Virus record (IMG/VR): IMGVR_UViG_3300032046_000006
Span: 1 to 64,000 of that record
Length of the DNA: 64,000 nucleotides
Strand: one strand, 5' to 3'
Source of the DNA: a virus
Under the pieces are notes generated by a model. That model had not been told where the DNA came from and made no database searches. It worked only from the letters and a program-made list of their open reading frames with translations. Below, in pieces: positions 47,787 through 63,680 of the stretch (position 1 is the first letter of the stretch; every line of letters starts with the position of its first letter). A program made the position numbers and the translations under genes.

Positions 47787-49811
47787 ATGTCATACACGAA
47801 TAGATTTATACATACCTCCGAAGAAACGGGAGCAAATTCCTATGCTTACATTATAACCGATACTTCTCCCGCAAAATTAATTAAAGTAGATTTATCTAAT
47901 CCTACGAGTTATGAAACTTATACTTTAGATGATACTGGAGAAGATTTAAATTATGGAAAAGCACTAATAATAAATGCTGATACAGAATATCTTTATGCTT
48001 CTTTTGATAATGGTTATGTTGCTAAAATTAGTTTAGATGACCCAAACAATAGGGAAATCTTTTATGTTGGAGAAGCCAATCAACTTAATGCTATTGCACA
48101 CGACCCTACTCGTTTACTTACTTTTGTAGGGGATAATATTTCTGGTTTGAGCGAATTTGTTATTGATGAATCCACTGTAAGTATAATAGATACAGATTTG
48201 AGAGTTTTATTGGAAGAAACAACTCTAATTAATACATACTTAGCGGTTTTGAATGGGGCAATAATAAATACTGATTTGCGTGTTAATAAAGAAACCATAT
48301 CCCTAATAAATACAGATTTACGAGTTAATAAATATACTTATGTGGATACTAATTTTTATCCTTTAGGAAGAGAAGATTTTCGCATATACATAGATGGCGA
48401 TGAATCGGCAAATGAATTGGGAGATGATGATTTAAAATTAGATTCTATTCAGATTACTCATACTATAGATAATAAAAGTATTGCAAAATTTACTCTACTT
48501 AGAAAACACGACGATATTGACAATCCCACGACTATTAGCGAGAATAATGCAGTAGAAATTTATCTTGGTAATAAGTTAGAGTTTACTGGAAAAATATCTA
48601 ACTTAGATTGCTCAAGCCAAGACGAAACTGTGGTGGTTTCTTGTGAATCAGATAGTATTACTGACGATTATGATTCGACACAAAAAGATTTACCATTAAC
48701 AACATTAAATACACAAATTCATTTATATGATGTATTATTAGACGACATAACAATTGATAATCCTATTTTGGATACTAGATTGATTATTGTTTCTGATGGT
48801 GGAAGGTATTGGACTGGTTCAAGTTGGAATAGAAAATTAAGTTTGGCTTTAACTTTTGTTAATTTTGCAACTGCATCGGCTTATTTGGAAACTAATATAG
48901 ACGATATTTTTATTAAAGGTAATCCCTCGATAGATAATTATGAAAGAAGTCCAAAATATTATAATGGAATTAGAGTTAATTTAGGAACTAAAATAGAAGA
49001 AAAAGTTAGTGGATGGGTTGCTTTGGCAAATTCTACAAAGACAGCAGAAGCAATAGAGGAAGGAACATTTAAATTTAATTCAGGATTTACTTATTTTTGG
49101 CATGTAGATGTTATACTATATGATTTGCCTTCTATTTCGACAGGTGTTAGTTCTACTCATACTCTTTTGCCTCATATAAGAACTGCTTTATATAAATATA
49201 TAGGCACCAGTTTATCTTCATTAAGTTCTGATTTATATGAAATAACTGGAGGATATTATCGCTATCAAAATATTTTAGATGATATAGAGACTGAATTGGG
49301 AGAGTATACTTTAGGAACTGCTCCTTATAAAGAAGTTTCGGCAAAAAATGGAATTAAAATAGCCAAAGGAAGATGGGTAGATAAAGATGATGGTCTTTAT
49401 TGGGATAAAGGAATATCTTATGATTATGAACAATATGCGAAAGATGTTGCTTCTGCGGAATATGCCAAAATTAAAAATATAAATGGAGATGTTTCCCCCA
49501 GAACTTCTGCGAGTATAGATTTAACACTTGATGGTTATTTATATTATGACTTAAATTTGCTCAATAGAATAAATCTAGTCAATACTACAATATTAAATGC
49601 TTATAAAAATTCTAATGGATTTCCGATAAGTATTAAACAAATAAATATAGACTCCAATTCTATGAAAGTTTCTATTTCATGTGATAATGAATATGCACAA
49701 AATGAATTAGATGTATTGGATACTATTTATGATAATGAACCATTAGAAACTCCAGAAACTTCGGTTAGATTATATAGAAAATTTGATTTACCACAATGGG
49801 AAAATGTCTAA
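47787..49811 (+). CDS. Baseplate hub / tail tip protein with propeller start
   Basis: 674 residues. Residues 1-130 are propeller-like repeats (YAYIITDTSPAKLIKVDLSN, YLYASFDNGYVAKISLDDPN). Residues 130-195 repeat 'INTDLRVNKETISLINTDLR'. From about 200 the sequence 'DFRIYIDGDESANELGDDDL', 'SIAKFTLLRK', 'VEIYLGNKLEFTGKISNLD' matches hub proteins (gp27/phage D-like) that form the tip channel. C-terminal 'INLVNTT ..GFPISIKQINIDSNSMKVSI' is typical of such hubs. TAATG coupling onward. Confidence 0.7.
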   Translation: MSYTNRFIHTSEETGANSYAYIITDTSPAKLIKVDLSNPTSYETYTLDDTGEDLNYGKALIINADTEYLYASFDNGYVAKISLDDPNNREIFYVGEANQLNAIAHDPTRLLTFVGDNISGLSEFVIDESTVSIIDTDLRVLLEETTLINTYLAVLNGAIINTDLRVNKETISLINTDLRVNKYTYVDTNFYPLGREDFRIYIDGDESANELGDDDLKLDSIQITHTIDNKSIAKFTLLRKHDDIDNPTTISENNAVEIYLGNKLEFTGKISNLDCSSQDETVVVSCESDSITDDYDSTQKDLPLTTLNTQIHLYDVLLDDITIDNPILDTRLIIVSDGGRYWTGSSWNRKLSLALTFVNFATASAYLETNIDDIFIKGNPSIDNYERSPKYYNGIRVNLGTKIEEKVSGWVALANSTKTAEAIEEGTFKFNSGFTYFWHVDVILYDLPSISTGVSSTHTLLPHIRTALYKYIGTSLSSLSSDLYEITGGYYRYQNILDDIETELGEYTLGTAPYKEVSAKNGIKIAKGRWVDKDDGLYWDKGISYDYEQYAKDVASAEYAKIKNINGDVSPRTSASIDLTLDGYLYYDLNLLNRINLVNTTILNAYKNSNGFPISIKQINIDSNSMKVSISCDNEYAQNELDVLDTIYDNEPLETPETSVRLYRKFDLPQWENV

Positions 49812-50239
49812 TGCCTATTTACGAAAAAACTACAAGAAAATTACAACACTTAACTAATAAAACTTTAGAAAATGAGGAACAACTAGCAAAAATAGATAAA
49901 GATTCTCCTCAAATAACCTCTTTTTATTATAATAAGAATATATCTAAATATTATATTTTTAATCGAAAAAAAATGGATAACATCAAGTCATTGACTACTC
50001 TGACCATTAATTTAAATAATTTTCCAGAAGAATATCTTCCTTATATTAATTTTGTCGCAATAAGTTATGGTATTACTGGAGTCCCTAACTTTGTTTTTAA
50101 TGGTTTAAACTATTCTTTTTTTCAAGTAGCACAACATAATTATAGATTAGAGTTCACTAATTGTAACTTCAACTTTGTTTACACTGCTTTTTTTTCGTTA
50201 TACTTTACAATAAATTTACCAAGAGATTATAATAATTAA
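49811..50239 (+). CDS. Tail tip accessory protein with coiled-coil start
   Basis: 142 residues from ATG 49,811, whose A is also the last base of the hub stop (TAATG). Residues 1-32 (KLQHLTNKTLENEEQLAKID) form a short coiled coil. The rest is beta-rich (FVAISYGITGVPNFVFNGLN). Similar short coiled-coil starts are present in the genes at 50,251 and 51,559, suggesting a common attachment peptide for different tip modules. Confidence 0.55.
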   Translation: MPIYEKTTRKLQHLTNKTLENEEQLAKIDKDSPQITSFYYNKNISKYYIFNRKKMDNIKSLTTLTINLNNFPEEYLPYINFVAISYGITGVPNFVFNGLNYSFFQVAQHNYRLEFTNCNFNFVYTAFFSLYFTINLPRDYNN

Positions 50240-50250
50240 AGGAAAGAAAT

Positions 50251-50397
50251 ATGAATACAATAAAAAAATTACTCGATAAAACAGAATCTACAAAACAACA
50301 AATAGAAAGAATAGATATAAAAAAAAGAAAATTAACTCCCCACAATAAAGTTAAGAGAATAATTACCTTATTGACCGATTGGGTTAAGTATAATTGA
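50251..50397 (+). CDS. 48-residue coiled-coil peptide of tail tip module
   Basis: Begins MNTIKKLLDKTESTKQQIER and ends RIITLLTDWVKYN. It consists of the same type of short coiled coil as the two neighbours but without their beta domain, so it may be a remnant or an independent linker. AAAGGAAAGAAAT ribosome site. Confidence 0.5.
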   Translation: MNTIKKLLDKTESTKQQIERIDIKKRKLTPHNKVKRIITLLTDWVKYN

Positions 50398-50405
50398 GGA
50401 ATAAT

Positions 50406-51569
50406 ATGCCTTTTGAATATCCTGAAAAAATAAATTCAAATATCCCCATAGCACTAAATATAGACTTGCCTATTACTGAAGATATGCTATCGTGGGTAAA
50501 AGTTACTCCTTTGATAATCGGTAAAGGTGCAGAAGAATTAAGTTTTTTTGATAGTTATAAAATACCTACATGGAAAGAGAATTGGGAAATTATTGCAGAT
50601 GGGCAAACCTTATGGAAAGGCAATTTTGCTCCAGGGGAAGCCACAGTAAACGCATTTTATGATTATGAAAACACAAGAGATGGAGTATATGTTTATAATC
50701 CTGAAGGATATTATCCCGATTGGTGGTATAATGGTTCTGAACAATCTGTTGATTTTTCCAATCTTTATAATTGGTATATTTTTGGATGGGATAAAAACTT
50801 AGATAATCAATATTTGTCGAGAGCAAAATATACTTATTTGGGAGGGGCTTGGTGGGAAAATCCCCCAATAACAAGATTAGTTAGATGGATTAATTCTGAT
50901 ATTATTTTTGAAGATTTTCGGTGGTGGAAGGGAAGTGATTGGACAATAATTCCTGGGCATTATTTTTGGTATAACATGTTTTTTCGGATGAATATAGAGT
51001 TTCCATATTGTTCAAATTTGATGTGGGCTAAAGTTTTAAAATCAGATTATAGTATAAAAGAAGTATGTCTTCCAGAAAGTGTTTTTATGGTTGTAAGCGA
51101 TTATGGTGGATTAAATCCAGAAAATCCTCCCGATATTCCCAGTCCTATTCCTTTTGATACAATACAAATAAAGAGAAACATACCAGATATAGAAGAATAT
51201 CAAATCTCTTCTTCTTATTTTTCATATTTTCAATTGTCCAAAAATTTTACTAGAATAAATGATAATAAGTTCAATCTTTCTATCAGTGGAAATATATATG
51301 TAAGTAATAAACCAATTTTATTTGATGAAACTTCATATCCAACTTTAGATAATACTTATGTTTTAAATAGGCAAATTACTCCAGGGCAAATACCAGGTGG
51401 TGGTCATGCGATATGGAGATATAGATGGTCATTTAATTTAGTTTCATCTACTATATCTTCTCTAATAAAAAGAACTCCCTTACCATTAAATCCTACTGTT
51501 CATACTAAATTTTTAGTAACTATAGTAAATCCTAATAGCAATGAGGAAGTGCAAAGATATGAAATATGA
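50406..51569 (+). CDS. Tail tip protein, Trp/Tyr-rich
   Basis: 387 residues from ATG 50,406 (TTGAGGAATAAT upstream). 'SNIPIALNIDLPITEDMLSW', 'PTWKENWEIIADGQTLWKGN' and a segment with many W/Y (PDWWYNGSEQSV, FRWWKGSDWTIIPGHYFWYN) give an unusually aromatic protein, often seen in sugar-binding surfaces. C-terminus is beta-rich. No family recognised; by position a tip or receptor protein. Confidence 0.55.
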   Translation: MPFEYPEKINSNIPIALNIDLPITEDMLSWVKVTPLIIGKGAEELSFFDSYKIPTWKENWEIIADGQTLWKGNFAPGEATVNAFYDYENTRDGVYVYNPEGYYPDWWYNGSEQSVDFSNLYNWYIFGWDKNLDNQYLSRAKYTYLGGAWWENPPITRLVRWINSDIIFEDFRWWKGSDWTIIPGHYFWYNMFFRMNIEFPYCSNLMWAKVLKSDYSIKEVCLPESVFMVVSDYGGLNPENPPDIPSPIPFDTIQIKRNIPDIEEYQISSSYFSYFQLSKNFTRINDNKFNLSISGNIYVSNKPILFDETSYPTLDNTYVLNRQITPGQIPGGGHAIWRYRWSFNLVSSTISSLIKRTPLPLNPTVHTKFLVTIVNPNSNEEVQRYEI

Positions 51570-52068
51570 TAATCTTACTCATAAAATAGAAACTATATGG
51601 AATAAAACAGAAGAGAATAGCACCAATTTAAATAGAGTTAAATCTATAAATAGGAAGAATCCTACCAATTATAATGCTAAAAAAATATTTTCGTTAGAAA
51701 CCGATTGGGAAAAAATGGAAGTATTTGCTCACTATGATATAAATGATGAGATAGATTATTATGGGGCTTTTTATAAGACTTATGAGATAACTATAGTAAA
51801 TTTTCCTTTAAGATTTTTAAATTGTATAGATTGTTGTGTATTATATCAATATACAATGCCAGCAATTGATAGTTTAAATTTATCCGGTAGTAGTAGTAAA
51901 TTTGTTTATATTTATGATTTAGATACTACGGAAGAGATTAATGATGCAGTAAAAACAGTAAAAATTTATGTTAGCCATCTACTTGCCCCTACTTCAAACC
52001 CTACCACAAAATATCAAGTCTATTCTAAATTAAAAATGACCATCGCAAACAATCAATCTTATAAATAA
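51559..52068 (+). CDS. Tail tip accessory protein, last rightward gene
   Basis: 169 residues from ATG 51,559 (GAGGAAGTGCAAAGAT); an earlier in-frame ATG at 51,541 lies inside the previous gene. The N-terminal coiled coil (NLTHKIETIWNKTEENSTNL) matches the start of the 49,811 gene, followed by a beta domain (YEITIVNFPLRFLNCIDCCV). Ends next to the convergent minus-strand island with no spacer, so a bidirectional terminator would have to lie within coding sequence. Confidence 0.55.
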   Translation: MKYDNLTHKIETIWNKTEENSTNLNRVKSINRKNPTNYNAKKIFSLETDWEKMEVFAHYDINDEIDYYGAFYKTYEITIVNFPLRFLNCIDCCVLYQYTMPAIDSLNLSGSSSKFVYIYDLDTTEEINDAVKTVKIYVSHLLAPTSNPTTKYQVYSKLKMTIANNQSYK

Positions 52069-52785
52069 TTAATTAGTTAGTTTATCTTTTATTTGCTGTC
52101 TTAATTCCATTTGATTATACCTAACATCTGACATTAAATTAAACATTGTTGGGTAATCGACTTTCTCGAAATTTTGAATCGCCGATTGTGGCGATACATT
52201 AAAAATTTTTGATTTAGAATTATTAAAATGTTTAAAAAATCTATCTGGGTCGTTGTGATTATAATATGAAACAAGTCCACTCCCACGATGTAAAATTTTT
52301 TTTCCGTAATAATGAATGTCTTCTTTAGTTTGGGTTATCTTTTTATCTTTTGGATTTAGTTGCCCATAATCGAATCCGCATAAAAATAGATTTTCAGGTT
52401 CAAACAATAAAGCCAGTTGCAAAGAAAAAATCCCAGTTAAAAAAGTTAAAAAACCATCTCGTAATGGATTATCTGAATAATTAGCATTTCTTTTTAATAA
52501 GATAGTATTGGGATGTATTATTAGATTGGCTTTTGGTTTCATTGTACTGATAATTAGAGGTTCCTCTTTTAATCGTTCATAAATATCGGGATGTCTAGCA
52601 AGATTGGTAGAACGATAAAATTCCCTATCACAACAAGTTAAAAGAGTATGGTCAAAATGAAAAAAGGAAAAATTGCATACTATCACAAACTTATCTTTTA
52701 TTTTATCTTTTAGACCTAAAGAGATTCCGTCAGATACAGATTTTCCTCCACCAATAATTATGATTTCTTTTATTTCTGGCACCAT
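52069..52785 (-). CDS. DUF115/sialyltransferase-like Rossmann enzyme
   Basis: 238 residues. 'IIIIGGGKSVSDGISLGLKD' (nucleotide-binding start), 'FVIVCNFSFFHFDHTLLTCC' with D-R-E-F-Y, 'FEPENLFLCGFDYGQL' and 'KIFNVSPQSAIQNFEKVDYP' fit the MAF/DUF115 and GT42 sialyltransferase-like group. Its likely job is transfer of a sugar (sialic-acid-like) or related pyrophosphokinase chemistry. First gene at the 3' end of the glycan island. Confidence 0.6.
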   Translation of the reverse strand: MVPEIKEIIIIGGGKSVSDGISLGLKDKIKDKFVIVCNFSFFHFDHTLLTCCDREFYRSTNLARHPDIYERLKEEPLIISTMKPKANLIIHPNTILLKRNANYSDNPLRDGFLTFLTGIFSLQLALLFEPENLFLCGFDYGQLNPKDKKITQTKEDIHYYGKKILHRGSGLVSYYNHNDPDRFFKHFNNSKSKIFNVSPQSAIQNFEKVDYPTMFNLMSDVRYNQMELRQQIKDKLTN

Positions 52786-52961
52786 TTACATCCTTTTCCT
52801 CTTCTAAATTTGAAATTAGGTAGATTGCGTAAACAGTTAGGGCATTGCTCTATTTTAGAGCATTTTGGCTCATAAAATGCCACTTTTCTGCTTGTTTTAT
52901 GCTTAAACCCACATAATATATGTATTTCTTCTAATAATCCTCTAATCAGGTCATTCTTCAT
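52770..52961 (-). CDS. Small zinc-ribbon protein
   Basis: 63 residues with CGFKHK, KCSKIEQCPNCL and GCKWCQK, that is at least two CxxC pairs. Overlaps both neighbours by 9-16 bp. Possibly a scaffold or regulator in the island; function unknown. Confidence 0.6.
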   Translation of the reverse strand: MKNDLIRGLLEEIHILCGFKHKTSRKVAFYEPKCSKIEQCPNCLRNLPNFKFRRGKGCKWCQK

Positions 52962-53109
52962 TTTTTACCTTTCTTATTTCCCAGAATTTTTTACGAACAA
53001 TAGTTCCATCTAATAAACGAATATCTAAATCTTCGGAATAAATTTCGATAACATTTCCCTCACATACTTGATTATTGTTTTTCACTAATACTGGGCACCC
53101 GAGGTACAT
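52951..53109 (-). CDS. 52-residue SH3-like hypothetical protein
   Basis: Begins MYLGCPVLVKNNNQVCEGNV, continues IEIYSEDLDIRLLDGTIVRK. Five short strands suggest an SH3/KOW barrel. AAAAGGATAAA ribosome site; overlaps the next gene by 11 bp. Confidence 0.5.
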   Translation of the reverse strand: MYLGCPVLVKNNNQVCEGNVIEIYSEDLDIRLLDGTIVRKKFWEIRKVKNEE

Positions 53110-53110
53110 T

Positions 53111-53668
53111 TTATCCTTTTATTAGTTTAATATTTTTCTTTTCTTTTATCCAATTTAAAATTAAATCTTTTTCAAAATCACCAAGGTGCCAAGGTTGTGT
53201 TTTTAAATTATGGTAAAAAGTCCCCGATTCAAAAAAATCAAATCCATAAATAGTTAATGATTTAAATTCTATATATTTTATTAAAAAATGTATTGCTAAA
53301 AGTCCGGTCGAAGGAAGTTTATCTTCGGGAAAGAAAAATTTAAGTTCTCTCCAATCTTCGGCTGGGTTTTGGAAAGCATTTTCTTTTATCCAATCTGTTG
53401 CTAATCTATTATCTGCGGTCATCCATACGACATACTTTGCATTAAAATTGCGTTTTAATTCTTCTTTGAAGCGGGTAGATATAAATAATACATCAGTTCT
53501 TTTTCCTATAAATTCTTCTTTTCCTTGAGAAATCCCCCGGTTCATTCTACAAATTATATCAAATTTTTCTATGTCTTTTTTGGTATTTAATATACTACGG
53601 GCATTTCCTAATAAACAAATATCTTTATCCTTTAAATATAATTGTAACTTAGTTAGGTTAGTTTTCAT
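53111..53668 (-). CDS. GT29/GT42-like sialyltransferase
   Basis: 185 residues. Motifs: 'DICLLGNARSIL' (CMP-sugar-binding start), 'FDIICRMNRGI', 'KRTDVLFIST', 'PSTGLLAIHFLIK' and 'LTIYGFDFFESGTFYHNL'. The order G-N-x-x-S, R-x-N-R, P-S-T-G and G-F-D-F/Y is that of GT29-type sialyltransferases and of their phage and bacterial relatives. ATGA overlap with the following gene. Acceptor unknown. Confidence 0.7.
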   Translation of the reverse strand: MKTNLTKLQLYLKDKDICLLGNARSILNTKKDIEKFDIICRMNRGISQGKEEFIGKRTDVLFISTRFKEELKRNFNAKYVVWMTADNRLATDWIKENAFQNPAEDWRELKFFFPEDKLPSTGLLAIHFLIKYIEFKSLTIYGFDFFESGTFYHNLKTQPWHLGDFEKDLILNWIKEKKNIKLIKG

Positions 53669-54261
53669 TTTAAATGCCTTGTTTTCCTCGATAACTGATA
53701 CTGTTCGATTATCGCATTATCTATCGGATTATGAGTTAACCCCTTTGGTGTTGTAGGAATATAACAATATTCCCAAGGCAAATTAAAACAGGTTATTTCT
53801 GGATGGCATTTTAATAACTCAGTCAATTCGTGTCTGTGAGAATGAGTTATATTGGCAATGATTTTTGCAAGTTCTTCTAATAACAATTTGGTTTTATTAT
53901 TATTTTTTATAAATAAAGTTCCATCCAATAATTCTAATCTTTCTTGAGTTTTTCCGAAATGTTTTTTCCAAGATAAAATATGAAATCCTAAATCTTCAGT
54001 AATTTCAAATAAAAGAGAGGGGTATCGCAAAATATTGGCATCGGCGTCGACCCAAACAAGGTCTTCAGTAGAACTATTCAATTTTTCTAAAATAATATCT
54101 ACTTTATGAGAACTATTTTTTTGCCATTTACCGAGAGATTCAAAAGGTTTAACCCAATAATTGAGATTAAATTTTTTAAATGAAGGAACGAGTACATTAT
54201 TGATTTGTTCTTCATAAGGAGTGTTGACAGTGTATCCTGATATGAAAATTAAATTATTCAT
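53665..54261 (-). CDS. GT8-like glycosyltransferase
   Basis: 198 residues. 'EDLVWVDADANILRYPSLLF' holds a D-A-D (DxD) metal site, followed by 'GTLFIKNNNKTKLLLEELAK' and 'ITCFNLPWEYCYIPT'. This is a GT-A-type fold of the nucleotide-diphospho-sugar transferase group. It is paralogous to the C-terminal domain of the 1,054-residue protein directly upstream (same 'LGKWQKNS/LGNWRLNS', 'WEYCY/SEYCY' landmarks). Confidence 0.7.
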   Translation of the reverse strand: MNNLIFISGYTVNTPYEEQINNVLVPSFKKFNLNYWVKPFESLGKWQKNSSHKVDIILEKLNSSTEDLVWVDADANILRYPSLLFEITEDLGFHILSWKKHFGKTQERLELLDGTLFIKNNNKTKLLLEELAKIIANITHSHRHELTELLKCHPEITCFNLPWEYCYIPTTPKGLTHNPIDNAIIEQYQLSRKTRHLK

Positions 54262-57200
54262 TTAATAATGACTAATAATTGGGACTATTGTGGGAGATTT
54301 TTTATTGGTAGAAACAACATAGCAATATTCAGAAGGTAATTCAAATAATTTTATGTCTGGATTTTGTTTTAAGGCTATCTCAAAAGCGATTCGCTGTCTT
54401 TGTTCGCAATTAGGTAACTCTTTTTCCCATGAATCGAGAAATTTTAATACTTTTTCGTTATTTCTTAAAAATATAGTTCCGCATAAAGGATGTTTTGGAA
54501 TAATCTTGTTATGTATTTTTGTTTCTTCTGTATAATGAATGGCAATGTCATAATATTCTGGAATTTCATCAAATAAAGAAGGATAAGAATTAATAGTTGC
54601 GTCAATATTTATGAATATGACATCTTCTTCATGAGTTAATAAAAACTGCTTGATAAAATCAATACGATAATTGCTATTTAGTCGCCAATTTCCTAAAGAA
54701 GGAACTTCATTAATATAATAATTTAATTTGAGATTTTTTACAGAAGAAAGTAGATATTTTTCGGCGATAGATTTTTGCTCATTAATATAATAACTGATTA
54801 TTGTGTTATCTAATTTAGTAGAAACTATAATATTGGGGGCTGTTTTGATTTCAGTTAAATAATTATTTGTAAGATTTTTTATAGTTTCATAATCCTTTTC
54901 ATAAATTGATTTGTAAATTTTATCCCATTTGGGTTGCAATAAAGACCAACTAAAATATTTTTCAACCCATAAACGATTTCTTTCTCCTATTTGTTTTCTT
55001 AATTTAGGATTTTGTTTTAAAATATCCAAACATTTATTCATACTATCAACAGTTTTATCTTCTTCAACAGGGACTATCCATTGAGGTTCAAGAAGTAATC
55101 TAATAGACCCAACATCGGTAGAAATCACAGGTATTCCGCATGCCATTGCCTCCAGAACTACTCTTGGCATAGCTTCACTTGAACTCGTCAATACAAGAAC
55201 ATCGATAGTTTTATAGAACTCTTTCATTGGGTCTAAGTTTGTTTCTTTAAGAAAGAGTTTTTCATTATGTCCAGAACATTGTTTGATTACTGGGTATTTT
55301 AATTTATCAAGCAAATGTGTTCTTTTTACTGGGGCTTCTCTTCCCACCCAGCCAACATTAAATCTATTTCTATTAAATTTATTGGGAAGAAAATAATTGG
55401 TATCTATTCCTTTAGGTAACCATACGGTTTGTTTAGGTAAATATCTTTTTTTAATGGTAGGTAAAAAATTAAGAGATAGAGTAGCAAATAAATCAATATA
55501 TTCTGCGGGATATTCACGATTTGCTTCTCCTCCATCAGACCCGATTATTATTAATCCACTTTCTTTCGCTTTTTTTAAAATGGGAATATTATAAGAATGA
55601 AACATAACTGGAGAATGGAAATACATTATATCATATTTCGTGAAGTCAAAATCATTAAGTTTTTCATATAATTCTTCTATTTTAATACAATCTAAATTAT
55701 ATTTGGAATATTTTTTCCGTTCTAAATAATTAAAATAAAACGCCCATCCATACTGGTCTACTATTTCAAGAATTCTTAAAGAGGGATTAATTATTGTTTT
55801 TGCTTTTTTAAGAAAGTCGTCAGTTATCAATTCTATAGTATCAAAATCGTCATAATATAAAGATTTAAATACTTTATCCCAAAGTGGTTGATTAACTTTC
55901 CAACTAAATTGTTCTTCCATTCGTTCTCTGTTTTTTTTACCTATTTCTTTTCTCAGATTTGGATTTTTTTCTAATAATTTCAATTTTTGATTCATTTCTT
56001 TAATACATTGAGTTTGTTCAATGGGAACCATCCATTCTTCATTTAAAAGAATAGGAACACTACCAACAGGGGTAGAAATTACAGGGATTCCGCATGCCAT
56101 TGCTTCTAAAACACTTCTTGGCATACATTCTTGCTCGCTCATAAGAACTAAACAATCCAAAGATTGATAAAACTTTTTCATTGGTTCTAATGTTCGTGTT
56201 TCTATAAAGAATTCTTTTCCATGTTGCGTTTGAGTTTCAATTGGGTAATTTAATTGTTGTAAAAGATTATTTCGCTTTTCTCCACAATTTATTCTTCCTA
56301 CCCAACCCACTTTAAATTTTGTGTTATCAAATTCTTTTTTAGGTAAAAAGAAGTTAGTATCAATAGATTCTGGCAAAAAGACCACATGGATTCCTGGATA
56401 AGTTTTTTTTAATTTTTCTATATCATTATAATCAATCGCCACAATTAAGTCAGCATAAGGATATTTGCCTAATATCATACCTGAATGTGCTCCAATAATT
56501 TTGGTATTTTTAAATTTTGGAGATTTTTTGATTTCTGGAATAATATTAAAAACGCTATTACTGATATTAGTTTGAGGAAAATAAATAATATCAGGAGTTT
56601 TAGTTTCTAAATATTTATTTAAATCTTGCAATCGGCAATATTCTATATTATGCTCGCTATATTTTTGTTGTTCTTTTGCTATAAAGAAATAAGCCCATCC
56701 GAATTGGTCAATTACTTTGAGTATATTTAATTTTTTGGGGTTGAGTTGAGTATTTTTTATATTAAAATCAAGATTTAATTTGGCAGAATATACTCCTAAT
56801 AACGCCCAAAAATCGATTTCGTTAAATCCGCACAATAATCTTTCTAAAAATATTTTTTCAAAATCCCCCCATCCCGTCCATTTATATTTTTTAATTTTTT
56901 GAGTTAAAGTATAATATCTTTGATAAATCAATTTATTAGTCCACAAAGGCGAATGAATTCCCATTACCATTTTATTCTTTAGGGTTTTATATCCATTTTT
57001 TTCTATTTGTTCATGAAAATCGGATGTTCCGTCTGTATTGGTGGAATCATTCAATATATTAAATTTATAATTTTTTACTATTTCGTATTTATAGCATTTA
57101 AGAGCATCAATTTTCTTGTTTAAATGTTCATCCAAAAGTTTAAAAATATAACTAAATGTTTTGCTGTCGCTCTGTTTTAGAGTATTATAAACAATCTCAA

Positions 57201-57426
57201 TAGCATTAGGATAAAGAATAAAATCTCCATCACATTGTATAAAATAAGGAGTTTTGCATCGATTAATCATTTCTTGCATTGCTTTATTTTGAGGACATAT
57301 ATCTTTTATTATATCTAATTTAAATTGAACTGTTTGTTTTTTTAATGCTTCTATACAACCAAGATAATTAGGATTGCCCTCAATTGATAGAACAAATACA
57401 GTTAAACTTGCTGATAAATCTACCAT
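54262..57426 (-). CDS. Four-domain glycosyltransferase (GT2-like, GT4, GT4, GT8-like)
   Basis: 1,054 residues. Domain 1 (about 1-230) is GT-A/GT2-like with DGD at 66-68. Domain 2 (about 233-530) is GT4: 'LNILKVIDQFGWAYFF', 'VGWVGRI', 'SEQECMPRSVLEAMACGIPV'. Domain 3 (about 551-850) is a second GT4 copy: 'RILEIVDQYGWAFYF', 'VGWVGRE', 'SSSEAMPRVVLEAMACGIPV'. Domain 4 (about 868-1054) is GT8-like with 'FINIDATINSYPSLF' (D-A-T in place of DxD). The E-x7-E motif expected of GT4 is present in both copies. Such a protein could build a short oligosaccharide on one acceptor. Shares its stop region with the GT8 gene next to it. Confidence 0.85.
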   Translation of the reverse strand: MVDLSASLTVFVLSIEGNPNYLGCIEALKKQTVQFKLDIIKDICPQNKAMQEMINRCKTPYFIQCDGDFILYPNAIEIVYNTLKQSDSKTFSYIFKLLDEHLNKKIDALKCYKYEIVKNYKFNILNDSTNTDGTSDFHEQIEKNGYKTLKNKMVMGIHSPLWTNKLIYQRYYTLTQKIKKYKWTGWGDFEKIFLERLLCGFNEIDFWALLGVYSAKLNLDFNIKNTQLNPKKLNILKVIDQFGWAYFFIAKEQQKYSEHNIEYCRLQDLNKYLETKTPDIIYFPQTNISNSVFNIIPEIKKSPKFKNTKIIGAHSGMILGKYPYADLIVAIDYNDIEKLKKTYPGIHVVFLPESIDTNFFLPKKEFDNTKFKVGWVGRINCGEKRNNLLQQLNYPIETQTQHGKEFFIETRTLEPMKKFYQSLDCLVLMSEQECMPRSVLEAMACGIPVISTPVGSVPILLNEEWMVPIEQTQCIKEMNQKLKLLEKNPNLRKEIGKKNRERMEEQFSWKVNQPLWDKVFKSLYYDDFDTIELITDDFLKKAKTIINPSLRILEIVDQYGWAFYFNYLERKKYSKYNLDCIKIEELYEKLNDFDFTKYDIMYFHSPVMFHSYNIPILKKAKESGLIIIGSDGGEANREYPAEYIDLFATLSLNFLPTIKKRYLPKQTVWLPKGIDTNYFLPNKFNRNRFNVGWVGREAPVKRTHLLDKLKYPVIKQCSGHNEKLFLKETNLDPMKEFYKTIDVLVLTSSSEAMPRVVLEAMACGIPVISTDVGSIRLLLEPQWIVPVEEDKTVDSMNKCLDILKQNPKLRKQIGERNRLWVEKYFSWSLLQPKWDKIYKSIYEKDYETIKNLTNNYLTEIKTAPNIIVSTKLDNTIISYYINEQKSIAEKYLLSSVKNLKLNYYINEVPSLGNWRLNSNYRIDFIKQFLLTHEEDVIFINIDATINSYPSLFDEIPEYYDIAIHYTEETKIHNKIIPKHPLCGTIFLRNNEKVLKFLDSWEKELPNCEQRQRIAFEIALKQNPDIKLFELPSEYCYVVSTNKKSPTIVPIISHY

Positions 57427-58079
57427 TTTTTTTCTCCGCAGTTAAAAAGATAATCAATTGCTGAAAGTCCAGGTAAGAATGGTTCATACATCTGATTATA
57501 GATAGGATGTTCAAATTCGTGAAAGACCACATTTATTCTTGCACACTTAAATAGAGGTAAATCTAAGTAATCCATTCCACTCTGTCCAGATAAATAAGTA
57601 TCTGCTCTCAACATTTGGCAAATTTCCAAACATTTTCCAGAACCATGTTTAGAGTATAAATTGAGATTAGAAGTAAATTCAATACGAGGTTTAATATTAA
57701 ACCAGTTTAACATTTGACATAATAATTCATAATTATAATCAAATAAGAAATCATATTTTTTATTAATAATCTCTTGAATTTTCGGAAAATATTTATCGAA
57801 ATAAGAAGATTTAGAGTAATTTTGTTGAATCGAATTTAACATTTTTCTTTGCCAATCGGATTCATGTACTACTTTTACTTCTTTAAAATTTAAACCAAGG
57901 TGAAAGTTAGTAGGAATAGTAACCCATTGGCAACCTTGCGGGGTTCTGATTTTGTTGCGATTGTCATAATAATTCTTTTTCACTTGAAAAGTATCTGCAA
58001 TTACAAAAGTATCTGCTTTTGAGACTTTATCGAAAAATCCTAAATATGACAAAAACTCTGGTTGGTGAATCACTAACAT
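57420..58079 (-). CDS. WbqC-like family protein
   Basis: 219 residues. 'HQPEFLSYLGFFDKVSKADT', 'QVKKNYYDNRNKIRTPQGCQ', 'LYSKHGSGKCLEICQMLRAD', 'SGQSGMDYLDLPLFKCARIN', 'FHEFEHPIYNQ' give the WbqC signature. WbqC proteins belong to O-antigen and sugar-nucleotide loci; biochemical role not settled (transferase-like). Overlaps its neighbours by 7 bp on both sides. Supports a dedicated sugar pathway. Confidence 0.85.
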   Translation of the reverse strand: MLVIHQPEFLSYLGFFDKVSKADTFVIADTFQVKKNYYDNRNKIRTPQGCQWVTIPTNFHLGLNFKEVKVVHESDWQRKMLNSIQQNYSKSSYFDKYFPKIQEIINKKYDFLFDYNYELLCQMLNWFNIKPRIEFTSNLNLYSKHGSGKCLEICQMLRADTYLSGQSGMDYLDLPLFKCARINVVFHEFEHPIYNQMYEPFLPGLSAIDYLFNCGEKKW

Positions 58080-58714
58080 TTATACTCCATTTTTATAATA
58101 TCAAATACTTCACTATATTTACATCCCAATTCTATGCCTCTTAATGTCGCTAAAGAAGTAACCAAATCTTTCCAATAAAGATATTTAGAATATTGACTTT
58201 TATGTTCTTGTAGAGATTTTAATTTAATGTTAAGAAAGTTGTCAATATTCACATAAAGTAATGGTCTGAATAATTGAGTAGATGTTTTAGAAGGAAATAA
58301 AGTTTCGAACATCCAAATAGTTGGGCAATATCTTGCTGCCGACATTACTGCTCTTGCAGTATTAAAATGGTCAGAATGACTCTCATTGAGGGCGTGAGTT
58401 ATGATAATGTTTGGTTTAAAAATATCCATCCATCTATTTAACGATTCTATTAGATTAGAATTGAAAGGAACATCTTTCGTGGGATAATTTAAACAAATCA
58501 TTTTTTGTACTCCCAAAACTTCAAAACTCTTGACTCCTTCTTCTTTTGCTTGTTGTTCTGTTCGCAAGATAGCCCCATTATAGGAGGTATAATCTGATTT
58601 AGTAACTGTAATAGTCCATACAATATCTCCTTGAGAAGTAAATTTTGCAATAGTTCCTCCACAGGAGAGAACTGCATCATCAAAATGTGATTCTACAATT
58701 AGTATATTTTTCAT
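58073..58714 (-). CDS. PIG-L/LmbE-type deacetylase
   Basis: 213 residues. Zinc-site motifs: 'ESHFDDAVLSCGG' (9-20, variant of PHPDDE..GG) and 'NESHSDHFNTARAVMSAAR' (HxDH). These are the metal ligands of the LmbE/PIG-L fold, which removes N-acetyl groups from sugars. In this cluster it would turn an N-acetyl sugar into an amino sugar, before or after transfer. The second D of the DD pair and the H's are intact, so activity is expected. Confidence 0.85.
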   Translation of the reverse strand: MKNILIVESHFDDAVLSCGGTIAKFTSQGDIVWTITVTKSDYTSYNGAILRTEQQAKEEGVKSFEVLGVQKMICLNYPTKDVPFNSNLIESLNRWMDIFKPNIIITHALNESHSDHFNTARAVMSAARYCPTIWMFETLFPSKTSTQLFRPLLYVNIDNFLNIKLKSLQEHKSQYSKYLYWKDLVTSLATLRGIELGCKYSEVFDIIKMEYKC

Positions 58715-59617
58715 CTACTTCTCCATAAAATTTCTAAAACAATATTTGCAAGCCAACGGTAATTCTCCATAGAAACCTTTTCTAAATTGGGTACAGTATT
58801 CGTTTTCCCATACATTTTTATCGTAAATAGTTCCATTTTCTTTCTTGGGGGAAAAAATTGAGTTACAAATCGATATACTTCCATTTCCATTTATTGATAT
58901 TCTACTCCACGCCAATCTACACCATTTTTTAAGATTGTTTGGGTCAATTAAAGTCGGATAGCAGGTAATTAAATTTGATTCAGGTAAAGTTTTTATTTTA
59001 TCTATTGATTCGTTTTCCCAATAAGTTAAAACTCTATTTAAAAATTCATTCTTGGTTTGTTCATCTTTTATATGATGAGGCAAAATATTTATTAGATGGA
59101 CTTCTCTTACTTTGAGTGTTTTTGCTAATCTTAAAAATTCAGGAATATGAATAAGATTAAATTTATCGCAAACATAAGATAAATAAATATTAAATCCTTC
59201 TTTTATATATAATTTTATTCCTTCTAAAATATGAATAAATTGATTTTTATTATGACAGATTTTTTCATGTAATTCTTGTGTCGGGGCATTAAGACTAACC
59301 GAAATATAATTGGGGGAATATTTTTTAAGAATATTAAATCTGTCTATTAATAAACTTCCATTAGTAATAAGTCCGCAATATACATTTTTTTCTTTGATAA
59401 ATTTTAAAATTTCTTCTAAATTCTCGCACATAAGAGGTTCGCCAAAACCTGCTAAACATAGTCCTTTAATTGTAGGGAAAGATTCTAATAGTTTCTCTAT
59501 TGCCTCTATAGACATATCTGGAGATGTTTCTATTTTTTTGCTTTGTCTAAGGCAAAAGGAGCATTTAAAATTGCATTTGTTGGTCATAAATAAAGTGGCA
59601 ATAGTAGGAAGATTCAT
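58715..59617 (-). CDS. Radical SAM enzyme with SPASM-like C-terminus
   Basis: 300 residues. CX3CX2C at 15-22 (CNFKCSFC), 'LAGFGEPLM' at about 54-63, then SPASM-type cysteines: LITCYPT, WCRLAWSRISINGNGSISIC, and ACKYCFRN at the end. 'isi.gnGsisiCns' plus 'CKYC' is the standard SPASM layout for a second iron-sulfur cluster. Members modify peptides or sugars (for example dehydrogenation or epimerisation). Substrate unknown; a sugar- or peptide-linked step in the island is inferred. Confidence 0.85.
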   Translation of the reverse strand: MNLPTIATLFMTNKCNFKCSFCLRQSKKIETSPDMSIEAIEKLLESFPTIKGLCLAGFGEPLMCENLEEILKFIKEKNVYCGLITNGSLLIDRFNILKKYSPNYISVSLNAPTQELHEKICHNKNQFIHILEGIKLYIKEGFNIYLSYVCDKFNLIHIPEFLRLAKTLKVREVHLINILPHHIKDEQTKNEFLNRVLTYWENESIDKIKTLPESNLITCYPTLIDPNNLKKWCRLAWSRISINGNGSISICNSIFSPKKENGTIYDKNVWENEYCTQFRKGFYGELPLACKYCFRNFMEK

Positions 59618-59618
59618 T

Positions 59619-60233
59619 TTATTCCTTTTTTAATATCATTAAAAATTCTTCTTCGGTATATGTGGTAATTCCATCTGCATACTCTCTCAATCCAATCCAA
59701 GGTATTTTCCGTATAGATAATCGAGTATATCGTTCAGTAAGTTTCATTATATCTTCTTCTAACAGACAATATGGATGGGCAGAATCTCTAACTTTCTTTT
59801 CTTTAAAAAACTCTACAGCTAAAATAAAATGTCCTTGTGGTTTTAATACTCTATAAATTTCATTATTTGTTTTTTCAATATCATCAACATGGTCAAGAGC
59901 ATTAGAGCAAAAAACTACATCAAAAAAATTATCCTTAAATGGGATGTTTTCTCCTTTTGCTTTTAAAATGTTTAATTCAGGAGGATAATCGTATAATGTT
60001 TTATAAGTTTCTGCTAATGGGTCTATCCCAAATCTTTCTCCTGGAAGAAAGTGCAAAATAGTAGAAATTCCACATCCCATATCCAAAATAATGGATCGAT
60101 TATTAAATTTACAATGGTCAAGAATAGTATCAAAATATCTATATTTTTGCCAATATTCTAATACTTTTTCTTTATTATTTTTAAATATTTTTGCCCAGCG
60201 TTTTTGAAATAATAATTCGTCTTCGGCTTTCAT
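59619..60233 (-). CDS. SAM-dependent class I methyltransferase
   Basis: 204 residues from ATG 60,233, which overlaps the previous stop as ATGA; longer in-frame starts lie within the upstream gene. Motif I 'IILDMGCGISTILHFLPG', the acidic 'FGIDPLAE', motif II 'PFKDNFFDVVFCSNALDHV', post-motif 'EIYRVLKPQGHFILAVEFF'. A Methyltransf_11-type enzyme, acting on a small molecule, sugar or lipid. Substrate unknown. Confidence 0.85.
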   Translation of the reverse strand: MKAEDELLFQKRWAKIFKNNKEKVLEYWQKYRYFDTILDHCKFNNRSIILDMGCGISTILHFLPGERFGIDPLAETYKTLYDYPPELNILKAKGENIPFKDNFFDVVFCSNALDHVDDIEKTNNEIYRVLKPQGHFILAVEFFKEKKVRDSAHPYCLLEEDIMKLTERYTRLSIRKIPWIGLREYADGITTYTEEEFLMILKKE

Positions 60234-61135
60234 CGAATCATCTCCTGAAAGTGGGAATCTATTATTCGAACTGCAATCTTCATTTCTGTCATCAAATTGA
60301 TTTTGGAATTCCATAGTTCTACATCTACAGGTTCTTTAATTAACCTTATAAGTTCTTCGCCATTTGAAAAGGTAGAAAGTTCTAAATCCTCCACCATTTC
60401 TGGTTGAATGTAAGTTTCTCGGCTTAATTTTTTACTTCTAGGAATTAATGTTCTTATTCCTCTCCCAACCATATCAAGAACAGAAAATTCATAACTTCCC
60501 GCATGAGTTTGAATGAATGTTTCTATTTGAGAAGTATTATTCATATACTCTTCATAAGTTGGAGTATTTAACATTGGCTTTATATAAGAAGCAACAGTTT
60601 CTTTTTTAGTAAACTGATAAATTTGATATTCTTCTTTAAGAGGTTTTAGCCACTCTGCAATTTCTTTAGATATATCACGACAATCGGGGCATACTCCTAC
60701 ATCATCTAATAAAATAGTTTTCGGAATTTTGGGTTTATTAATCATAAAATCTTTACTATATGGAAAAGGAATATAACAATCCATCGGTTTTTGTTTTCTA
60801 TGTAATCCAAAGAAATAATCAACGGGTTGATTAGATGATTCTATGAAAGAGCAAATTTGATATTTAATTCTTGGTTTAACTTTTTGTATTTGGTCAATAG
60901 GAGGGTAATGATTCCAAGTATGAATTAATAAAAAATCCAGATTAGGTATTTTATCAAGAAAAAGATTGGGATTGTTCCATTCTCCTCCTCCAGATAAGGG
61001 CAATAAATGCAATGTTACATAAGGCAAAAGTTTAAATTCTTTTTCTAATCCAGCATAATTCATTTCGACTGCTTGAGTGCACTCTTTCAAAGAATTTGCT
61101 CTCCAACCTATTAATCCTAACGAATAATTATTCAT
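60230..61135 (-). CDS. Glycosyltransferase-like (GT-B) protein
   Basis: 301 residues from ATG 61,135 (AAAGGATTAAG; longer in-frame starts rejected). 'LGLIGWRANSLKECTQAVEM', 'LIHTWNHYPPIDQIQKVKPR', 'IETFIQTHAGSYEFSVLDMV', 'GRGIRTLIPRSKK'. The late 'h.GsyEfsvldmv.rG..tLiP' is like the donor-binding end of GT-B enzymes, where E and G contact the nucleotide sugar. N-terminal part less clear. First gene of the island. Confidence 0.6.
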   Translation of the reverse strand: MNNYSLGLIGWRANSLKECTQAVEMNYAGLEKEFKLLPYVTLHLLPLSGGGEWNNPNLFLDKIPNLDFLLIHTWNHYPPIDQIQKVKPRIKYQICSFIESSNQPVDYFFGLHRKQKPMDCYIPFPYSKDFMINKPKIPKTILLDDVGVCPDCRDISKEIAEWLKPLKEEYQIYQFTKKETVASYIKPMLNTPTYEEYMNNTSQIETFIQTHAGSYEFSVLDMVGRGIRTLIPRSKKLSRETYIQPEMVEDLELSTFSNGEELIRLIKEPVDVELWNSKINLMTEMKIAVRIIDSHFQEMIR

Positions 61136-61137
61136 TC

Positions 61138-61269
61138 TTAATCCTTTAAAATATAATAAAGTTTCTTTATATTTTCCCAAGTTAATTTAAATAGTTCACT
61201 AGTGAATATAAATAAAAATATAATTATGCCACAAATAAACCCGATAAAAAAATAGAACAATTTACTCAT
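61138..61269 (-). CDS. Small single-span membrane protein (43 residues)
   Basis: Begins MSKLFYFFIGFICGIIIFLF, one strongly hydrophobic helix, then LTWENIKKLYYILKD. Overlaps the end of the phosphoesterase gene by 8 bp and ends just before the start of the GT-B-like gene. Possibly a membrane anchor for the glycan enzymes; that is context only. Confidence 0.55.
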   Translation of the reverse strand: MSKLFYFFIGFICGIIIFLFIFTSELFKLTWENIKKLYYILKD

Positions 61270-61801
61270 TATATTTTCCTTCTTTTAACCATTGAGAATA
61301 TGCCTGTAAAATTTCTGATATTGTAACAGGGCAATAATTCCATTGTTCCACCGAAACATTACAGCAATCTGTAAATGTCATACCCTTACGAAATCTCTTA
61401 AATTTCCACTTTTCATGTACGTGTCCGCAAATATTGAAATTATAGTTTACATTGCAATATTCTGGGTCATGAACTAAAAATATTCGTTTCCCTCCAAGTT
61501 TGATAACCAGATTTTGGATGGGAGTTTTACATCCATTATTTTTATCATGGCTCCCATCAAGGAATATGATATTCCCCTTTAATAATGGTCTAATAGTATC
61601 GAATTTTTGCCCATCGGGAGCTTCAGTTGATTTAGTAAACCCCCAATCACCCAAGAAGAATATAGTATCGTTAGATTTAACTCTTGAATTCCAATTATCT
61701 ATGATTTTTTTATTCATTTCCTCTACATTAGAGAAAGGTCTATTGCAATAAGATATAATTTTTGTATGTGAAAAATGGGTATCACTAATAAAGAAAAACA
61801 T
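61262..61801 (-). CDS. Calcineurin-type metallophosphoesterase
   Basis: 179 residues. Motifs in order: FISDTHFSH (D-x-H), FLGDWG, DGSHDKNN (variant GNHD with S for N), FLVHDPE, ICGHVHEKW (GHxH). All metal ligands except the usual Asn of GNHD are in place. This small 'SDtHf.H..ii' family (YfcE-like) is common in phages. Substrate unknown; polynucleotide or cyclic phosphate. Confidence 0.85.
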   Translation of the reverse strand: MFFFISDTHFSHTKIISYCNRPFSNVEEMNKKIIDNWNSRVKSNDTIFFLGDWGFTKSTEAPDGQKFDTIRPLLKGNIIFLDGSHDKNNGCKTPIQNLVIKLGGKRIFLVHDPEYCNVNYNFNICGHVHEKWKFKRFRKGMTFTDCCNVSVEQWNYCPVTISEILQAYSQWLKEGKYNE

Positions 61802-61815
61802 TTATTTTATCCTTT

Positions 61816-62409
61816 TTATCTAATTATTTCATCACATACTTTTTTTCGCAATGCTTCTTCTGCTGTTAACCATAATTCGCCTGCATTCATTTTGTGCATA
61901 TCGAGATTGGTTAATTTAGTATATTTTTTACAAAGATTATCCATATTTTTTTCAAGTTGAGTTAAAAATTTTACTCTATCTTTTATATATTGTAAATAAT
62001 CGCATTGACCCTCGCTAAGAGGATGAAACATAATATAACTATTAGCATACATTTTTCTTCTTTTACCTGTAATAAAAATCAAAGCGGACATACTGCATGT
62101 TTCCCCACTAATGATAGTATGAATTGGGGCTTTGCTATGTTCTATAGCATTAATAATAGAAAATCCGCAACTTACTTCCCCTCCAGGACTATTAATTTCA
62201 ATTGTGATTGGTTTTTTATCATCAAGAATATTCATAGCTTTAATTTTTGTTACTATTATATCTGAAGATTCATTAGTAATAATGTCATAAAGTAAAATAT
62301 ATCTTTCTTTGTTTAAAATTTTGAAATAGTAATCTTCCCCCCATTTTTCTTCTTTTTTAATTGCAGTAATTTCTTCTTCATTTTCTTTATCACGATAAAA
62401 ACTATTCAT
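61816..62409 (-). CDS. clpP: ClpP-type serine protease
   Basis: 197 residues, usual ClpP length. 'ITIEINSPGGEV' (about 69-79), catalytic serine in GETCSMSAL (Ser about 106), histidine in 'IMFHPLS' (about 129) and 'GELWLTAEEALRKKVCDEII' near the end. No ClpX/ClpA partner is visible in the window, so it may join host ATPases. Phage ClpP is known in prohead maturation or host take-over, but the position here, next to a phosphoesterase and a transporter, points to the second. AAAGGAGGAATAA. Confidence 0.85.
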   Translation of the reverse strand: MNSFYRDKENEEEITAIKKEEKWGEDYYFKILNKERYILLYDIITNESSDIIVTKIKAMNILDDKKPITIEINSPGGEVSCGFSIINAIEHSKAPIHTIISGETCSMSALIFITGKRRKMYANSYIMFHPLSEGQCDYLQYIKDRVKFLTQLEKNMDNLCKKYTKLTNLDMHKMNAGELWLTAEEALRKKVCDEIIR

Positions 62410-63582
62410 TTATTCCTCCTTTATTTTTAAATACTTAATTATGGGTAGGCATAAAAATGAAGTTCCCGCCGAAAGAATAATAAGCCATTTTAATCCCACC
62501 AAAGGAAATAAAAACGCTCCACTAAAACTACTCGCAGTTCCTGCTGATAAATTATTTATACCACATAACAAGGCAAATGTAGTTGCTTCTAATCCTTTTA
62601 TTGAGGACTTAGCAAGGAAATCCATCATAATAAGATGAATAATCATTCCTATAAGAGAATAGATGCAAAGATAAATAATAGCGCTTATAGAAGTATAATA
62701 AAGATATGATAGCGTTATTAATGCTCCTAAAAAGACACTATAAGTAAGCCATTTTTTAATATTAATTTTTTGACTAAATTTCCAATAAATCATAGCTCCG
62801 ACAATTGAAATTACGGAAGCAATAGTTCCTAAAAATCCCATAAATTGAAAACTCCATTTGAAATTATCACGTTCCAGATAGGATAGTGGTGTGCCAAAAG
62901 AGGGGGAATATTTATATAAAAATAAAAATAAACAAGCCCATAAAAAGGATTTATGTTTAAAAATTTCTTTATAGGATTTTATCATATCTATTATTTTTAT
63001 TTTAGTATGCTTAATTTTTTCTTCTCTATAAAAATAAATAGGAATAAACATCATTATATAAAATGGTATGAGTAATAAAAATCCTGCTTTATAAGAATGA
63101 TGGTCAGCTAAATAGCCCCCCAGTAATCCTGTTATAATTGTAGCAATTGTAATAAATATCCATTGTAAACTCTGAATTTTGCCTGTAGCATTGTATTTTT
63201 TCCCTTCTATACACATTGTGCCATCTACAGCGACATCCCTTATAGCAGAATTTGTAGAATTAATAAACATCATAGTAATCAACAAAACTAAAGGCAAAGA
63301 CCAAATTCCCAAAAACAAAACCGTTATAATGTCTAAAATAATAGAAATAGAAATCCAAGTTTTTCTTGACATAAATTGGTCTATAAAAAATCCCCATAAA
63401 ATTTTAGGTATCCAAGCAAGTCCTATAATAGCATTTAAAGTCATTAATTTTTCAGGAGGATACATAAGAACTTCCTTAAAATATTTAAAAAGAGAAAGAC
63501 TCGGCAAGCCTTCAATGCCCTGTATAAAATAACACATCGCCGATAATGAATAAATCCAAAATAATTTTTTATCTATTTTCAT
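62410..63582 (-). CDS. BT1/MFS-type pteridine (folate/biopterin) transporter
   Basis: 390 residues from ATG 63,582 (AAAGGAAATGAAAG), with about 11-12 hydrophobic segments. 'LFWIYSLSAMCYFIQGIEGL', 'LNAIIGLAWIPKILWGFFID', 'MMFINSTNSAIRDVAVDGTM', 'FALLCGINNLSAGTASSFSG' match the BT1 family (R/D in 'aiRDvavDg'). A complete membrane carrier in a phage genome is unusual and suggests import of pterin or a related metabolite. Family call by pattern. Confidence 0.8.
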   Translation of the reverse strand: MKIDKKLFWIYSLSAMCYFIQGIEGLPSLSLFKYFKEVLMYPPEKLMTLNAIIGLAWIPKILWGFFIDQFMSRKTWISISIILDIITVLFLGIWSLPLVLLITMMFINSTNSAIRDVAVDGTMCIEGKKYNATGKIQSLQWIFITIATIITGLLGGYLADHHSYKAGFLLLIPFYIMMFIPIYFYREEKIKHTKIKIIDMIKSYKEIFKHKSFLWACLFLFLYKYSPSFGTPLSYLERDNFKWSFQFMGFLGTIASVISIVGAMIYWKFSQKINIKKWLTYSVFLGALITLSYLYYTSISAIIYLCIYSLIGMIIHLIMMDFLAKSSIKGLEATTFALLCGINNLSAGTASSFSGAFLFPLVGLKWLIILSAGTSFLCLPIIKYLKIKEE

Positions 63583-63680
63583 TCTTTCATTTCCTTTATT
63601 AAACAAAAAAATGCAGCAACCCAATACCCAATATACCATAATAACCAAATAATAAATAATCCTATGTAGAAGTTTAGCAT
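63579..63680 (-). CDS. Tiny membrane peptide (33 residues)
   Basis: Starts MLNFYIGLFIIWLLWYIGYW and ends FCLIKEMKE. One hydrophobic helix. It overlaps both the HslV-like gene (TGCTAA) and the transporter start (ATGA). No clear ribosome site, so translation by coupling is needed. Confidence 0.4.
   Translation of the reverse strand: MLNFYIGLFIIWLLWYIGYWVAAFFCLIKEMKE

Follow-up and report, generated by a model that had tools for sequence, protein, structure and literature searches.

A fixed genomic slot for differing glycan-gene cassettes in a group of uncultured tailed phages

What is a run of glycan-building genes doing in the genome of a phage, and what do its products decorate? The question is raised by a 64,000-nucleotide stretch of DNA (the window), positions 1 to 64,000 of IMG/VR virus record IMGVR_UViG_3300032046_000006, in which an earlier note, made from the sequence alone, described nine open reading frames (ORFs) on one strand as a phage-borne island, unusual among phages, that might decorate the virion, the DNA or the host surface. 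We found that this island sits at a fixed site with conserved flanks, that it forms a chain of genes on a single strand and that related phages hold differing content at the same site. It seems that the phage lineage reserves a place in its genome for exchanging the sugars that decorate its own particle or the cell it infects. Our favoured explanation, to which we give about an even chance, is that the island represents one form of a glycan cassette that can be exchanged and that its most likely acceptor is a phage virion protein.

All nine ORFs were present, on the minus strand, and two further small ORFs of 52 and 63 amino acids (aa) bring them up to a single chain of eleven, running from 61135 down to 52069 (Table 1). 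Neighbouring genes are separated by 0 or 1 base or overlap by 4 to 16 bases, in agreement with the description of them as overlapping or touching. The site lies between a block of metallophosphoesterase, ClpP and transporter genes and a set of convergent tail genes. We compared it across 15 related IMG/VR contigs, all of them metagenomic, of which four were recovered with the terminase as probe, ten more with the BT1-type transporter and one (L053) with the metallophosphoesterase; the phage of the window is G000 in the numbering of these relatives. The site, recognized by its position after the metallophosphoesterase gene, is visible in 11 of the 15. Sugar genes occupy it in nine, and there are none in the other two (G007 and the near-identical G008), which have PIG-L and glycosyltransferase family 4 (GT4) genes elsewhere, beside virion-region genes. 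The remaining contigs either stop short of the site (G001 and G003) or have the transporter in a different context (G011 and G013). G002 and G004 are syntenic with the window phage over the entire alignable genome, as is G010, and this genome-wide synteny, together with the comparison of the site, bears out the claim that the island is phage-borne. We rejected a host O-antigen locus with host flanks or a chimeric contig, because the genes on either side belong to phages and keep their synteny across many independent contigs.

The cassettes of the relatives are mostly of other kinds: CDP-ribitol/LicD-like, cytidylyltransferase/DUF2284 and GDP-sugar-like, such sugar names (ribitol and, below, sialic acid) being family-level leads. 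In G002 the site holds an IspD-SDR fusion, a GT2-like gene, LicD, Polysacc_synt_2, a GT2-containing 675-aa protein, PIG-L and the gene that also ends the cassette in the window, which we call the anchor gene. G005 and the near-identical G006 have SDR, DUF2284, a cytidylyltransferase, a LicD-GT2 fusion, a GT2 protein, a GT2-like gene, an amidoligase, GT9 and the anchor gene. The SDR, DUF2284 and cytidylyltransferase genes recur in G004 (where the contig stops within the cassette), in G009 and in G012, the last adding a GT2 gene, while G014 has a GT2-type gene, an amidoligase and a GT9-like gene. The L053 cassette, whose genes were named from reading the sequence, holds a cupin, a nucleotide-sugar-dehydratase-like gene, a 676-aa protein and the anchor gene.

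The suggestion that the same gene set might be found in related phages thus held only for one cousin cassette, that of G010, the site elsewhere carrying mostly other sugar genes or none. The G010 cassette consists of an RmlD-like gene, an NTP-transferase, LicD, an 815-aa GT4-GT4 protein, PIG-L, WbqC, a homologue of the 60230-61135 gene, GT2, a 53-aa ORF and the anchor gene. Identity to the window phage is 76% for PIG-L, 51-54% for the 60230 gene, 46-50% for WbqC, 45% for the GT4 pair (44.6% over 649 aa of the 815-aa protein) and 39-45% for the anchor gene, the median for the other genes common to the two phages being 48% (n = 63). The PIG-L value, near the top of the range, would fit either strong constraint or later exchange. 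The G+C content of the cassette (28.6%) is like that of the replication half of the genome (28.7%; structural half, 31.8%), so composition gives no hint of recent import. Scans for promoters and terminators gave counts no higher than in shuffled DNA.

The tail genes beside the cassette fall into two unrelated types, one in G000, G002, G007 and G012 and the other in G005, G009, G010 and G014. Cassette types were found with both tail types, which indicates that cassettes and tail tips are exchanged separately.

For the tailoring enzymes, Pfam profiles support the earlier labels of WbqC, PIG-L, radical SAM and methyltransferase. In a PDB search the PIG-L protein matched diacetylchitobiose deacetylase and BshB-type enzymes; among the papers available, none was useful on WbqC function. 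The radical SAM enzyme had been called SPASM-type; its cysteine-rich C-terminus agrees with this, but the SPASM match (0.0027) lies under the cut-off. As a prokaryotic viperin the same protein scored 56 bits against an NCBIfam cut-off of 180, and although PADLOC pVip matched at 1e-19 (without a curated cut-off), we rejected that identity, the cysteine-rich C-terminus being a further consideration. A second radical SAM-like ORF, with a weak PF04055 match, lies at 597-1532 of the window and has no counterpart in G002 or G004. The methyltransferase ORF opens at 60314, and its start is probably at 60233, judging from the 4-base overlap with the preceding gene. The product of that preceding gene (60230-61135), which had been called GT-B-like, matched no Pfam, PHROG or NCBIfam family, and the label found no support.

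The 1,054-aa fusion had been read as GT2-GT4-GT4-GT8. Both GT4 units pass the PF00534 cut-off, and in each the E-x7-E motif (at 433 and 751) is intact, as it is in both units of the G010 homologue. The GT2 label rests on a DxD-like CDGDF motif in the N-terminus (about residues 1-230), where the PF00535 profile and a PDB sequence search gave no match and a GT2-like protein of G002 was hit weakly by BLAST (E = 0.03). The C-terminal domain (about 876-1054) is homologous to the product of the next gene, 53665-54261, and neither the profile searches nor a PDB sequence search of this DAD-motif family matched GT8 or any other named family, and the GT8 label was not confirmed for either. The fusion should read as two GT4 units flanked by two other domains, the last of which has its own family in these phages. 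Catalytic motifs are mostly intact and not systematically lost; in the last domain of the fusion, NID stands where homologues have DxD and the single gene keeps DAD, and this domain may therefore be altered in activity. A predicted fold of the fusion was of low confidence (predicted local distance difference test [pLDDT] score, 38.7) and was set aside.

Two proteins had been called sialyltransferase-like. The first, 53111-53668, can be placed by its profile match in the GT29 sialyltransferase family and aligns with ST3Gal I (PDB 2wnb, E = 0.0017) in two stretches that correspond to the L- and S-motif regions; its activity with sialic acid is a prediction. The second, the anchor gene product, carries GGGxS and LTG...GFD motifs that recall sialyltransferases, but the likeness is unproven: its match to PHROG 4603 is weak (E = 0.04), a PDB sequence search was empty and its predicted fold (pLDDT, 68.2) gave no PDB match below an E value of 0.001.

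Table 1. Genes of the cassette and its flanks, listed in cassette order (positions in the window)
Feature	Position	Strand	Evidence and relatives
Upstream flank: BT1-type MFS transporter	62410..63648	-	PF03092, 1.7e-21; conserved; probe for relatives
Upstream flank: ClpP-like protease	61816..62409	-	PF00574, 1.1e-27; conserved
Upstream flank: metallophosphoesterase	61262..61801	-	PF12850, phrog_547; 55-58% in G002 and G004
First cassette gene, ~301 aa	60230..61135	-	Family unnamed; homologue in G010 cassette
S-adenosylmethionine (SAM)-dependent methyltransferase	59619..60233	-	PF08241, 5.1e-18; DMGCG motif
Radical SAM enzyme	58715..59617	-	PF04055, 3.1e-22; CNFKCSFC cluster motif; Cys-rich SPASM-like C-terminus
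PIG-L family deacetylase	58073..58714	-	PF02585, 3.5e-21; HFDD and HSDH motifs
WbqC family protein	57420..58079	-	PF08889, 1.8e-60
1,054-aa glycosyltransferase fusion	54262..57426	-	Two GT4 units (PF00534, 1e-31) between two further domains
198-aa DAD-motif protein	53665..54261	-	Homologous to fusion C-terminus (36%) and to a domain of the 836-aa fusion in huge phage LR756500 (32-36%)
GT29 (sialyltransferase family) protein	53111..53668	-	PF00777, 8.5e-7, above cut-off
52-aa ORF near cassette 3' end	52951..53109	-	Homologues in G002 (63%) and G010 (54%)
63-aa Cys-rich (CxxC) ORF, second small 3' gene	52770..52961	-	
Anchor gene, last of cassette	52069..52785	-	35-47% identity among the five different cassettes that keep it
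Downstream flank: three convergent tail-region genes	49796..52068	+	Variable among relatives, two unrelated types

In a simple Kyte-Doolittle hydropathy scan, the cassette proteins of G000, G002, G004, G005 and G010 were soluble, the exceptions being a single borderline stretch within one of the fusion's GT4 domains and a 63-aa ORF of G010; of all the proteins encoded by the window phage, just two, the BT1 transporter and a site-2-protease-like ORF, had at least four hydrophobic segments. Phosphoglycosyltransferases were absent from the records searched (PF02397 in none of nine, PF00953 in none of eight), as was a Wzx-type flippase (PF01943 in none of nine), whereas control genomes matched. 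What had been called an O-antigen-sized pathway is thus a multigene sugar cassette but not a self-sufficient O-antigen pathway. We rejected a complete Wzx/Wzy-type O-antigen locus, as these records gave no match to the tested families of initiating phosphoglycosyltransferase and flippase and, in the window phage, no multi-membrane protein fit to be the polymerase was seen, and likewise a serotype-conversion gtr cassette with its GtrA and Gtr(type) membrane proteins, as the cassette has no multi-membrane protein. With soluble enzymes only and no initiating, flipping or polymerizing step, the pathway would either build directly on protein (the virion) or borrow host lipid-linked intermediates.

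On our favoured explanation, the cassette genes would be co-transcribed during infection, and their soluble products would build a short oligosaccharide in the cytoplasm from host nucleotide sugars. The GT4 pair and the other transferases would add the sugars, PIG-L would free an amino group, and WbqC, the radical SAM enzyme and the methyltransferase would tailor the product; a terminal sugar, or one that serves for attachment, may come from the GT29-like enzyme and the last gene. The glycan would be attached as in mycobacteriophages and chloroviruses, and adsorption, neutralization or competition between phages would drive the swapping of cassettes. We favoured the virion because its glycosylation by phage transferases is documented (PMC11256854) and because viral multidomain transferases work likewise (PMC4691112).

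Several points weigh against this explanation. No acceptor was identified, and lipid-linked precursors of the host would be equally possible targets for soluble enzymes. One Asp of the DxD motif is lost in the last domain of the fusion. The ratios of nonsynonymous to synonymous substitution (dN/dS; NG86) for the five genes common with G010, 0.14-0.50 overall and approximately 0.32 for the 60230 gene and 0.19 for PIG-L, speak for the explanation together with the intact motifs, but they are rough, as dS is near saturation. Finally, the type of cassette did not follow that of the tail appendages, and a link to the neighbouring tail proteins was looked for and not seen: G000 and G010 have cassette genes in common beside unrelated tail genes, and for G012 and G009 the reverse is true.

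The main rival, possible though less probable, is that the cassette remodels the host envelope: during infection it would alter lipopolysaccharide (LPS), capsule or a teichoic-acid-like polymer so that rival phages are kept from adsorbing. Its enzymes would work at the cytoplasmic face, on lipid-linked intermediates of the host, which would also supply the initiating transferase, the flippase and the polymerase. Polymorphic glycan clusters of cyanophages have been interpreted in this way and are taken to exclude competitors by changing the host surface, a role that is itself inferred (PMC7824862). Wall- or capsule-type genes in the relatives (the IspD/TarI-SDR fusion, LicD, Polysacc_synt_2 and GT9) are consistent with it, and in LR756500 a related GT29/GT-fusion pair lies inside a cluster that resembles a capsule locus and includes Capsule_synth and PS_pyruv_trans genes. 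However, the searched genomes yielded neither an initiating transferase nor a flippase, and membrane proteins were absent from the cassettes examined.

A bolder form of the virion explanation, which we consider rather unlikely, is a dedicated virion-glycan locus at which whole pathways (sialyl type, ribitol-phosphate/phosphocholine type, deoxy-sugar type) are swapped at one site, giving particles with host-mimicking sugars. If true, it would be the phage counterpart of bacterial O-antigen and capsule switching.

We gave small credence to a cassette whose product is a small soluble sugar metabolite, resembling an aminoglycoside or a thiol, and decorates nothing. PIG-L, radical SAM, methyltransferase and transferase genes do co-occur in aminoglycoside and low-molecular-weight thiol pathways. 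Among NCBIfam models PIG-L is closest to BshB1, BtrN appears weakly among the PDB matches, and a metabolite has been proposed for a cyanophage sugar cluster (PMC7824862). But no match reached the curated cut-offs of those pathways, and the same-site cassettes of relatives are of polymer or glycan types. Functionless, host-derived filler is very improbable, even though "stuffer DNA" has been raised for cyanophage LPS clusters (PMC3037559). The tight gene chain, the intact motifs, the recurrence at one site and the rough dN/dS values well under 1 in shared genes all argue against it. Hardly credible, and the least likely of the three targets first named, is glycosylation of the phage DNA against restriction or CRISPR, which is known for T-even phages, since the record has no thymidylate-synthase/hydroxymethylase family gene and since soluble multienzyme sugar chemistry with WbqC, PIG-L and a multi-GT fusion, alongside the relatives' LicD and CDP-alditol genes, is unlike nucleobase modification.

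Large phage glycan clusters are already known, and this cassette is not a new kind; that it is exceptional for its phage group was not supported, because relatives have cassettes of a similar kind at the same site and cyanophages have larger LPS clusters (PMC3037559, PMC7824862). Like the LPS/outer-polysaccharide clusters of the T4-like cyanophages P-SSM2, S-SSM7 and S-SM2 (PMC3037559, PMC7824862), it is a multigene glycan cluster in a large tailed phage, in which transferases and sugar-modifying enzymes stand together and content is polymorphic among related phages. Unlike them, it occupies one fixed slot with conserved flanks and an anchor gene, includes multi-GT fusions, has CDP-alditol/LicD versions in relatives and belongs to an unrelated, uncultured phage group. 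The mycobacteriophages Che8 and Rita (Freeman 2023, cited in PMC11256854) share phage-encoded transferases and a virion protein as acceptor, the latter as we propose it here; Maravista, described in that source, has a couple of putative transferases, whereas deacetylase, radical SAM, WbqC and methyltransferase genes accompany them here. Chloroviruses and mimiviruses (PBCV-1 a64r and the Megavirus three-GT-domain protein; PMC4691112) likewise combine virus-encoded glycan machinery, multidomain transferases and clustered sugar-modifying genes, but these are eukaryotic nucleocytoplasmic large DNA viruses, likened by gene content and not by homology. Closest to the GT29/GT-fusion part was LR756500, an uncultured huge phage of 462 kb, in which a GT29-like gene directly precedes a fusion of 53665-type and GT4-like domains, with methyltransferases and GT2 also present; identity is 27-36%, and the partners differ (aminotransferase, Capsule_synth, sulfotransferase and pyruvyltransferase). 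As far as our searches show, what is new is a fixed slot, with conserved edges and an anchor gene, in which phages of close synteny carry glycan pathways that are unrelated to one another.

A set of 50,697 records of cultured or deposited phages held no match to the terminase-like protein, the transporter, the anchor gene or the 60230 gene. Two scans of cellular genomes, with the terminase and PIG-L as queries, found no relative, and IMG/VR single-protein scans with the fusion and WbqC found nothing. WbqC matches in "Bacteriophage sp." records from human faeces were unannotated and unverified and were excluded as evidence.

The record of 105,887 bp is supported as a tailed phage by a tape-measure protein, a conserved terminase-like protein and its virion gene order. 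Both ends (1-293 of the window and 105575-105887) lie in one shared 24-bp tandem repeat, also found at 97021-97428, and the end genes are neighbours in G010, so the record is probably nearly complete; the arrangement suggests that the genome is circularly joined or permuted and that the break lies in the repeat. No tRNA was detected within the window. Elsewhere, a 1,162-aa family-B-like DNA polymerase (record 75813-79301; L002 11813-15301) apparently contains an intein-like insertion, and many HNH-endonuclease-like ORFs are scattered across the genome (18108, 26974, 28608, 35618, 81009 and 101401), both read by eye.

Among the flanking genes, the BT1/folate-biopterin-type transporter is kept in all relatives. 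ClpP-like, site-2-protease-like and peptide-deformylase-like genes are also conserved (window 61816-62409; L001 13475-14734, which is record 64475-65734), and G002 has an additional M16-peptidase-like ORF. Several relatives also carry GT2-TPR-LicD fusions (L018 3263-5431; L036 2324-3937; L023 12127-13818) in a second, small slot that separates ClpP from the gene beside it, either the BT1 transporter or the metallophosphoesterase; this slot is empty in the window phage.

If the favoured explanation is right, phages of this group would have a serotype-like locus, a single slot with conserved edges at which relatives exchange entire glycan pathways. What phage glycan clusters do could then be tested with relatives that differ mainly in their cassette, and the site would offer glycan pathways that are compact and soluble, as well as fusions of several transferases.

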